Assembly: GCA_013792075.1 (NCBI GenBank)
Contig: VMSR01000105.1
Coordinates: forward strand, 1 to 64,000
Direction of reading: 5' to 3'
DNA from: Desulfobacula sp.
GTDB lineage: Bacteria > Desulfobacterota > Desulfobacteria > Desulfobacterales > Desulfobacteraceae
Length of the DNA stretch: 64,000 nucleotides
A program made the position numbers and the translations under genes. Shown here piece by piece: positions 10,687-13,694 of this stretch (positions are counted from its first letter, which is position 1; the number at the start of each line of letters is the position of its first letter). The notes beneath the pieces were generated by a model. It saw only the letters and a program-made list of their open reading frames with translations, made no database searches and was not told the origin of the DNA.

Positions 10687-11394
10687 TTGATTTTTATGGA
10701 CATAGAAGAATACTTTTCAAAGTTAAATCTTGAATCACAGAAGATATTCAGTCAGACAATTTCTGAGAAAGAAAAACTCGGTACACTTCACCATTTATCA
10801 TCTTGTATCTATGAATTCGCTAAATGCCTTCCTGATCCACAAGAAAGAGTAATTCTTGTAACAGTTAGCGCGCAACTAGAGTCGGCAACCTTTAATCTGG
10901 CTTTGGGATTGTACAGACAAGCGTTTGCATCTCTAAGGTTGGCTTTTGAGATGGGACTTGCGGCAATATATTTCTCTGTCAATAAAATGGAATTGCATGA
11001 ATGGCTTGATGGACGTTCGGATATAAAATGGACAAACCTTGTAGATGAAGAAAAAGGGGTTTTATCTAAACGGTTCGCAAAGGCTTTTTTTAGTGAATGC
11101 TCTGAGCATATTGATAATTATCGGGAAAAAGCGTTAACTACTTATAGAAAACTATCCGAATACGTTCATGGAAATAACGAAACATGGGAAAAAAGTGGTC
11201 TTAAATTAAAATATAACGACACTTTATTTGAGTTGTATTTTAAATACCACAAATCCGTATCAGAAGTGATTTTGTTTGCTGCTGTATGCAGATATATAAA
11301 ACTATTCAGCGATTCAACGCGTGAGACTTTACAGTTTATCCCTGAAGAATTTAATAATATATCGACTATTAGGGAATTATTTGGTCGTACATAG
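10687..11394 (+). CDS. Uncharacterised helical protein with an RX6H (HEPN-like) motif, cassette gene 1
   Basis: I do not recognise a named family. The 235-residue protein is predominantly helical. Residues 55-100 hold a conserved-looking helix pair (SAQLESATFNLALGLYRQAF, SLRLAFEMGLAAIYF), and R154-H161 (YRKLSEYVHGN) fits the RX4-6H motif of HEPN ribonucleases. No signal peptide is seen and the hydrophobic stretches are short. The start is TTG 10687 with AGGA four bases upstream, or ATG 10696. It lies eight bases before the ATPase gene and has the same AT-rich codon use, so the pair is probably one unit. A HEPN toxin or nuclease subunit is an inference; a different helical family is possible. 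Confidence 0.7.
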   Translation: MIFMDIEEYFSKLNLESQKIFSQTISEKEKLGTLHHLSSCIYEFAKCLPDPQERVILVTVSAQLESATFNLALGLYRQAFASLRLAFEMGLAAIYFSVNKMELHEWLDGRSDIKWTNLVDEEKGVLSKRFAKAFFSECSEHIDNYREKALTTYRKLSEYVHGNNETWEKSGLKLKYNDTLFELYFKYHKSVSEVILFAAVCRYIKLFSDSTRETLQFIPEEFNNISTIRELFGRT

Positions 11395-11402
11395 GAAAAA
11401 AA

Positions 11403-13013
11403 ATGAATGAATTTTATCTTAGAACTGAAAGTATAAAACAGACAGATATTTTAGATTTATCGGTAGTAAACGAGGCAGATAGGAGCATATTAGCCGCACT
11501 TAAATCAAACGAGCCCTGTCTTTTAGAAGGATCAAGAGGGACTGGAAAATCTTTTTTGATGCGAGTAGCTGAATTGGAATTGGAAGCGGAAAATGAATCC
11601 TGTGCCACAGTATTTGTTCCATTCAATATGAGTTCTTTAATTAGCACAGAAGATAACCTTCAATTCTATCATTGGATGATGGCCAAGACGCTAAAATACT
11701 TGCTAAACAAACTAAGAAGGAAAGGAATCGTTGTCTCTTCCCTATCAGCAAACCTTTTAAGTAATGATGAAAATGAGAATGAGAATGAAGTTCAAGTTAG
11801 CTTGAAGGAAATAGTAAAGCTGTTCGAAGAGTCATATAAAGGGAGTGCCTCCGTTGATATTTCTGCACTGCCTGATATTGAAGATGTAAAAGAAGCGATT
11901 CAAATGATTTGCGAAGAAAATTCACTTGACAGGGTAATTTTCTTTTTTGATGAAGCCGCTCATGTTTTTAGGCCAGAACAGCAAAGACAATTCTTTAATC
12001 TTTTTAAAGATCTTAGATCACCCTATATTACATGTAATGCCGCTATCTATCCCGGGGTAACGCATTTTGGAGATTCATTTGAGCTAATTCACGATTGCAC
12101 ATACAAAAAATTAGAGAGAAATATTTCTGATCCTGATTATCTGCAATACTTTAAAGATATAGTCTTTAAGCAGTCTGACGAAAATTTACGTTCAGATATA
12201 GATAGGCAAAGGGCACTTTTCAATACGCTTTCCCTATCATCTGGTGGCAACCCAAGAATGTTGCTGAGAACTCTTCAAGATTTGACTAAACTTAATACAT
12301 CGAACGTAAACACAGTGATCAAGTCATTTTATCGAAATCAAATTTGGACCGAACATACTGAGTTAGGTGAAAAATATAAAGGTCACAGAGGCATAATAGA
12401 TTGGGGAAGAGATTTTCTGGAAAATTCAGTTATTCCAAAAGTCGCAGAATATAACAACGTTAGAAAGGAAAAAGGGATTGATGAGTCCACAATCTATTTT
12501 TGGATACATAAAGATTCTCCTGAGGAAGTAAAAGAAGCTTTAAGACTATTAACTTATACCGGAATAATAAGGAAGGTAGATAACTCAGTAAGAGCTACCA
12601 GGGTTGAATTGGGGTCACGATACGAGATCAAATACGGTTGCATGATTTCATTAGAAAGTAGTCCACACAACGAATCGTCTGAATTTTTTAAAAACCTCTC
12701 TATTAAAAAGTTTCCTGAGTTTGGTAAAAATCATAGCTCATATTCTGGAAGCCGCGGAATACTTCTAACTGATGACGAACAACAATATGAAGAGTCTTTA
12801 AAGTCTTTGCTTGCAAAGCCAATTGAAGTTTTAGTTCTCCTCACTCAATGGCAAAAAGAAAAATTGAAGGGAGCGGGAGTTAATACAATTGAGCAGTTGC
12901 ATAAAAGTACCGAACAGAATTTAATTGAAAAAATCTATAATGTTGGACCTGCACGAGCTAGGTTGATGAAAAATGCAGCAGCAGCTGAACTTCTTGAGTA
13001 TATATCAGGGTAA
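11403..13013 (+). CDS. P-loop ATPase with C-terminal helix-hairpin-helix region, cassette gene 2
   Basis: The 536-residue protein is an AAA/STAND-like NTPase of no family I can name. Visible parts are Walker A GSRGTGKSF (residues 43-51, K49), Walker B RVIFFFDEA (177-185), a sensor-like GGNPRMLLR (281-289), a probable winged-helix stretch (about 330-415), and a C-terminal segment (485-530) with GAGVNTIEQL and IYNVGPARARLMK that resembles helix-hairpin-helix DNA-binding motifs. The low-complexity ENENENEV at about 123-130 comes from a short GAGAAT repeat. It follows the HEPN-like gene by eight bases and ends just before attC. An ATP-driven sensor partnered with a nuclease would suit a phage-defence role, but that is inference. 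Confidence 0.75.
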   Translation: MNEFYLRTESIKQTDILDLSVVNEADRSILAALKSNEPCLLEGSRGTGKSFLMRVAELELEAENESCATVFVPFNMSSLISTEDNLQFYHWMMAKTLKYLLNKLRRKGIVVSSLSANLLSNDENENENEVQVSLKEIVKLFEESYKGSASVDISALPDIEDVKEAIQMICEENSLDRVIFFFDEAAHVFRPEQQRQFFNLFKDLRSPYITCNAAIYPGVTHFGDSFELIHDCTYKKLERNISDPDYLQYFKDIVFKQSDENLRSDIDRQRALFNTLSLSSGGNPRMLLRTLQDLTKLNTSNVNTVIKSFYRNQIWTEHTELGEKYKGHRGIIDWGRDFLENSVIPKVAEYNNVRKEKGIDESTIYFWIHKDSPEEVKEALRLLTYTGIIRKVDNSVRATRVELGSRYEIKYGCMISLESSPHNESSEFFKNLSIKKFPEFGKNHSSYSGSRGILLTDDEQQYEESLKSLLAKPIEVLVLLTQWQKEKLKGAGVNTIEQLHKSTEQNLIEKIYNVGPARARLMKNAAAAELLEYISG

Positions 13014-13014
13014 A

Positions 13015-13087
13015 ATGTAACAACTACATGCACTCAGACCGGTGCTACGCTGCCGCTCCACACCAGCTGGTGATGCTGCCGTTGGGC
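13015..13087 (+). other. attC recombination site of the gene cassette
   Basis: The site starts ATGTAAC (R'' box), overlapping the region right after the ATPase stop, and ends GTTGGGC (R' box, GTTRRRY). In between, TGCACTCAGACCGGTG and CACCAGCTGGTGATGC form the imperfectly paired L''/L' arms around a GC-rich centre. The length of 73 bases is within the normal attC range. R'' and R' pair only at AAC/GTT here, as expected when the TTRRRY half belongs to the next cassette. Confidence 0.75.
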
Positions 13088-13107
13088 GAATAGAAAGGAG
13101 AAGCATG

Positions 13108-13548
13108 ATGTCAATCAAAGCGGATAACGCAACCCAAAAGTTTTTGAGTGGATACAACTGAGCACAATCAGTGCTTTACGCTTTCCGGGAAGAAAGCGGC
13201 TTGTCAGAGGAAATGGCCCTGAAGATCGCGTGTGGTTTAGGTGCAGGCATGGCACGAAAAGAGGAGGTCTGCGGTGCAGTAACAGGAGGCATCCTTGTCT
13301 TGGGAATGCGGCATGGCAGGGGCAGCAAAGACGATAGGTCAGCCCAAGAGCGGACCTATGCTAAAACGAGAGAGCTCATGGACCGTTTTTCTGAAAAGCA
13401 TGGCACGGTTATTTGTCGTAAATTGCTAAATGGTTGTGAGTTGACGACCAAAGAAGGTCAGAAATACTTCATGGACAATGATTTGCTTAACAAATTATGT
13501 GTGCCGTGCGTTCAAAGCGTCATCATGATTCTTGAGGGCAATCTGTAG
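13108..13548 (+). CDS. C-GCAxxG-C-C family redox protein with in-frame UGA (selenocysteine)
   Basis: Predicted 146-residue selenoprotein. From ATG 13108 (AAAGGAG seven bases upstream) the frame runs through an in-frame TGA at 13159-13161 and on to TAG at 13546-13548. The context is LSGYN-U-AQSVLYAF. Family members have Cys at this place (GxNCxQxV), so UGA replaces the first conserved cysteine. Further family marks are EVCGAVTGGILVLG, VICRKLLNGC and LCVPCVQ. A stem-loop fitting a bacterial SECIS follows the UGA. The role is presumed to be a thiol/selenol redox function; the substrate is unknown. Conventional calling would start at GTG 13171 and lose the active-site region. It begins 27 bases after the cassette boundary. 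Confidence 0.88.
13162..13200 (+). promoter_or_regulatory. Candidate bacterial SECIS element
   Basis: Within the coding sequence, GCTTTC (13180-13185) and GAAAGC (13192-13197) form a perfect 6-bp stem with loop CGGGAA. The loop begins 24 bases after the UGA and has G as its second base. Both agree with the general bacterial SECIS model (loop 16-37 bases from the UGA, a G among its first two bases). A smaller stem GCAC/GTGC lies directly after the UGA. Confidence 0.7.
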
Positions 13549-13694
13549 GATAGCCCAGCCTGTCGTTTCACCTGATTCGCTTGGCTCCCCGGCGACAACC
13601 ATGTCTTTTGAGGATTCGAAAAAGAATCAAGATATTGAATTTTTTAATAATACCTGTTAAAAAGAAATTTTGACTTTTTAAGGGGTTGCCGTAT

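Follow-up and report, generated by a model that had tools for sequence, protein, structure and literature searches.

A predicted selenoprotein gene of the C_GCAxxG_C_C family with integron cassette-like flanks in Desulfobacula sp.

The window, i.e. the whole stretch of 64,000 nucleotides analysed here from contig VMSR01000105.1 of Desulfobacula sp., contains a gene of the C_GCAxxG_C_C family that is interrupted by an in-frame TGA codon and flanked on both sides by sequences resembling the recombination sites of integrons. The features of the locus are as follows.

10687-13013, forward strand: two upstream genes (235 aa and a 536 aa ATPase), tentatively a possible neighbouring cassette
13015-13087, forward strand: attC-like site (ATGTAAC ... 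GTTGGGC), found by pattern scan, starting immediately 3' of the stop codon of the upstream gene
13081-13087, forward strand: GTTGGGC core, the proposed 5' cassette boundary, where homology to the other Sec genes ends
13096-13100, forward strand: Shine-Dalgarno-like AGGAG, 7 nt 5' of the ATG at 13108, in a leader common to the homolog L053
13108-13548, forward strand: predicted gene for a selenoprotein of 146 aa, with its stop codon; C_GCAxxG_C_C family (PF09719/TIGR01909)
13159-13161, forward strand: UGA, predicted Sec codon for residue 18, aligned with the family's first conserved Cys
13179-13198, forward strand: bacterial SECIS-like stem-loop of 7 bp with the loop CGGGAA (13186-13191)
13553-13600, forward strand: decayed attC-like site 3' of the gene (GCCCAGC ...), where several homologs have an intact GCCCAAC

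The UGA codon and the downstream hairpin

The frame that begins with the ATG at 13108, ahead of which there is a second in-frame ATG at 13105, contains the internal TGA at 13159-13161 and is then open as far as the TAG at 13546-13548. ORF calling with translation table 11 yields only GTG 13171-13548 (125 aa), which is the trimming to 13171 that the sequence-only reading had foreseen. In profile searches with the protein translated through the TGA, both PF09719 (E 3.9e-32, 111.3 bits; curated cut-off 27) and TIGR01909 (E 1.8e-25, 89.3 bits; curated cut-off 47.4) scored above their cut-offs. The match extends over residues 16-143, which confirms the claim of homology on either side of the TGA. 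The Cys positions of the family, including the CGAxxG motif, align with Sec18, C55-G56-A57, C103 and C132/135, and the alignment with family members places the UGA exactly in the column where the homologs have a cysteine, as had been proposed.

A TGA at the same codon is present in eight further genes from seven other genomes (L053, L054, L080, L055, L056, L096, L097 and L098), with 71-88% identity. Two of these, L054 and L080, are Sec copies at different sites of one Desulfosudis MAG (G087/G183). The codon is TGC or TGT in 33 of the 34 other relatives compared. The remaining gene, L065 (2108-2536), has TAT and thus a tyrosine at the Sec/Cys column. One Cys relative, L061 (4078-4515), is intact except for a single in-frame stop near residue 117, where the others have a glutamine.

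The hairpin downstream of the UGA was judged by its distance from the codon, its pairing, the loop G and its conservation across genes. Its arms occupy positions 13179-13185 and 13192-13198. The stem starts 17 nt, and the loop 24 nt, downstream of the UGA, with G at loop positions 2-4. All nine TGA genes form seven of seven stem pairs and have an invariant CGGGAA loop, while the 34 genes without the TGA form at most five pairs at the same place. Among the first six TGA genes, the identity of synonymous codons is 0.949 in the stem-loop versus 0.593 in the remaining gene, and the peak of synonymous identity along the gene coincides with the stem-loop. One of the stem pairs varies between U-A, U-G and C-G, and a second is either C-G or U-G. 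No stem pair shows a two-sided change relative to its commonest type, and formal covariation is therefore weak. As a single sequence, the hairpin folds mildly better than shuffled sequences (z -1.64), which is unremarkable on its own; it is more than a chance structure because it is kept across the TGA genes and not in the genes that lack the codon. The suggestion of a stem-loop with the right spacing and a loop G is in this way confirmed, with conservation confined to the TGA genes.

The sequence-only reading had also named missing sel genes as evidence that would speak against selenocysteine. In the window genome (5.3 Mb in 308 contigs, 98.9% complete), selA (614 bits), selB (347 bits), selD (369 bits, with a single in-frame TGA of its own) and a tRNA-Sec gene (selC; score 76.9, over the Rfam gathering score) were all found. 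Furthermore, a full selB is present in each of the four further TGA genomes checked, and of the 22 genomes in which the gene has Cys or Tyr, eight lack a selB over the cut-off, a distribution that agrees weakly with the Sec reading.

Could the UGA be a true stop, with translation starting at the GTG at 13171 and yielding a protein without the first Cys? Such a product would equal the standard ORF call, but the protein sequence of residues 1-17 is conserved in both the TGA and the Cys genes, an AGGAG precedes the ATG at 13108 while none is seen before the GTG, and the UGA and the hairpin are retained together in nine genes, all of which makes a true stop highly improbable. Even less credible is that the TGA came into a Cys gene by nonsense mutation or through a base-call error; the codon is one substitution from TGC or TGT, but the same TGA is found in seven other, separately assembled genomes, the frame is protein-like throughout and the hairpin is under extra constraint. 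The recurrence of the codon in independent assemblies excludes the base-call error that had been raised as a possible refutation.

Judging from these comparisons, we have very little doubt that the gene encodes a selenoprotein, and the UGA at 13159-13161 is almost certainly read as selenocysteine, as in known relatives of the family. SelB bound to the hairpin directly 3' of the UGA would bring Sec-tRNA to the codon, and residue 18 would be Sec where relatives carry Cys. Forms 1 and 2 of the C-GCAxxG-C-C family are already listed as selenoproteins in two reviews (PMC9312934, PMC13188914), with WP_012158890.1 and MGD8741185.1 as examples. These belong to the same Pfam family, PF09719, as the window gene, a likeness at the level of the family, and the NCBIfam entry TIGR01909, "C-GCAxxG-C-C family (seleno)protein", is the family assignment of the window gene without any difference. 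Since selenoproteins have been recognised in this family before, the gene is a new member of a known selenoprotein family and not a new selenoprotein family.

Predicted structure and evolution of the Sec clade

The AlphaFold2 model of the protein is confident (pLDDT 95.9) and almost entirely helical, with Sec18 where a helix begins. Among solved structures, the closest fold is that of split-Soret cytochrome c, PDB 1H21 ("novel iron centre"; Foldseek probability 0.99, E 0.076, TM 0.53); with 11% identity and no sequence match, the likeness is one of fold and serves as a lead only. A search by sequence for relatives of solved structure gave none that were convincing, and no conserved gene neighbourhood hinting at a function was seen in the 16 loci compared. 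The protein is small and probably cytoplasmic, and we infer a metal- or thiol-based redox role. It would most likely act in thiol/selenol redox chemistry, with Sec18 at the helix N-terminus as the attacking residue, while Cys55, Cys103 and Cys132/135 may be resolving or metal-binding partners.

In the phylogeny, all nine Sec genes fall within one clade (support 99/97), the hosts of which belong to several families and include a Smithella and Desulfobacteria-type genomes. The sole Cys gene in this clade, L077 (5001-5429), retains the CGGGAA loop but has a broken stem. The simplest reading is that L077 is a probable Sec-to-Cys reversion, although the topology within the clade is poorly resolved. 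Two distant paralogs, L035 (G041) and L043 (G037), also have a TGA in the same Cys column and are likely to represent independent Sec substitutions. These two genes suggest that the C_GCAxxG_C_C family underwent more than one change from Cys to Sec. L043 is situated within an open frame of 352 aa. Copies on plasmids are distant relatives alone, with less than 41% identity.

Cassette-like boundaries of the Sec genes

The aligned Sec genes have a leader of about 20 nt in common, which starts at a GTTRRRY core. The core is GTTGGGC in the window, L053, L080 and the Cys gene L058, and GTTAGGC in L096, while a consensus 5' core is lacking in L054, L055, L056, L097 and L098. The identity among the Sec genes is 0.63 in the 20 nt from the core on and falls to 0.27, the level of shuffled sequences, upstream of the core. 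The window gene thus has a 5' boundary at which homology breaks at a GTTRRRY core, as is characteristic of an integron gene cassette. The sequence-only reading had overlooked the attC-like boundaries that flank the gene. Pattern scanning of about 170 kb in ten loci identified four attC-like sites, of which three abut a family gene, including the one at 13015-13087 in the window. This upstream site was missed by a strict attC pattern that demands R'/R'' complementarity, probably since the two halves of a site in an array stem from different cassettes. The two-gene unit at 10687-13013 ends 1 nt before the attC-like site. The 235 aa protein has no family that could be found, and the 536 aa protein is an ORC-CDC6-like P-loop ATPase with weak similarity to the Sll1717 family and to antiphage proteins; the unit is possibly a defence-type cassette.

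At the 3' end, a GCCCAAC motif is located directly past the stop codon in five of the nine flanks compared (L053, L054, L055, L058 and L096). The corresponding site in the window reads GCCCAGC and is without an attC fold (z +0.67). L096 is followed by a complete attC, GCCCAAC ... GTTGGGT (L111, 3851-3917), with a bottom-strand fold (z -3.2), which has a GNAT gene on one side and a YoeB gene on the other. By L096 there is also a decayed recombinase of the IntI/XerD type (L111, 2.1-2.6 kb), for which the fit to XerD equals that to IntI. L058 is preceded by a GNAT gene, a methyltransferase and the remnant of an integrase, and GNAT, YoeB and ParE genes are neighbours in the homologous loci.

An intI gene is present in the window genome (G000:C171:2737-3675, L086; 369 bits), not adjacent to the selenoprotein gene, and none is encoded on the window contig. 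Scans of unestablished sensitivity detected no attC-like site near this intI, nor any attC beside the intact intI genes of four genomes. An intI over the cut-off was found in seven of the eight genomes considered versus 48% of the class, a weak enrichment. The presence of intI was rejected as proof of a cassette, since it is weak when the class frequency already amounts to 48%.

Integron gene cassettes resemble the window gene and its homologs in that a single gene is placed between a GTTRRRY core and an RYYYAAC ... attC-like site, and in that GNAT and toxin genes are neighbours in the homologous loci. The window gene differs from them by its recoded UGA with a SECIS and by its decayed 3' site. 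The homology break at the GTTRRRY core, the GCCCAAC after the stop codons and the attC of L096 together make spread as cassettes probable. We hold with reasonable confidence that the locus encodes a C_GCAxxG_C_C selenoprotein whose Sec clade moved as an integron cassette, and, taken by itself, it is probable that the Sec clade travels, or has travelled, in this form. Somewhat more guardedly, we favor the fuller account that the selenoprotein gene with its SECIS is an integron cassette, in which a recoded gene would pass from host to host and benefit only those with the Sec machinery, L077 looking like a Sec-to-Cys reversion. The cassette would consist of the gene with its SECIS, begin directly after the GTTRRRY core and end in an attC, and integrase-mediated movement would have carried it between bacterial lineages. 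The window cassette would be stranded by the decay of its 3' attC.

The main alternative is that the gene is a selenoprotein gene only, transferred horizontally as an ordinary chromosomal gene, and that its attC-like flanks arose by chance or are the remains of another element. The lack of such flanks in most Cys relatives, the decayed 3' site in the window and the absence of an integrase gene from the contig are in its favor, but several genes break exactly at GTTRRRY with unrelated DNA upstream, a complete attC follows L096, five of nine flanks have GCCCAAC past the stop codon and the neighbours are typical cassette genes. We therefore regard this alternative as unlikely, though it deserves to be taken seriously.

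Implications of a probable cassette-borne selenoprotein

No earlier report of a selenoprotein borne on a cassette was found in the literature searched, and what linked integrons to selenoproteins were passing matches, among them a Vibrio cassette for a selenocysteine lyase. The available text of PMC9312934 and PMC13188914 makes no mention of cassette-like flanks of C-GCAxxG-C-C selenoproteins. The window protein is a well-supported and easily mis-annotated addition to a selenoprotein family that was known before. If the Sec clade did move as integron cassettes, integrons would also carry genes whose translation depends on special machinery, integron annotation would truncate such cassettes at the UGA, and the patchy spread of the Sec clade over families and classes would be explained.
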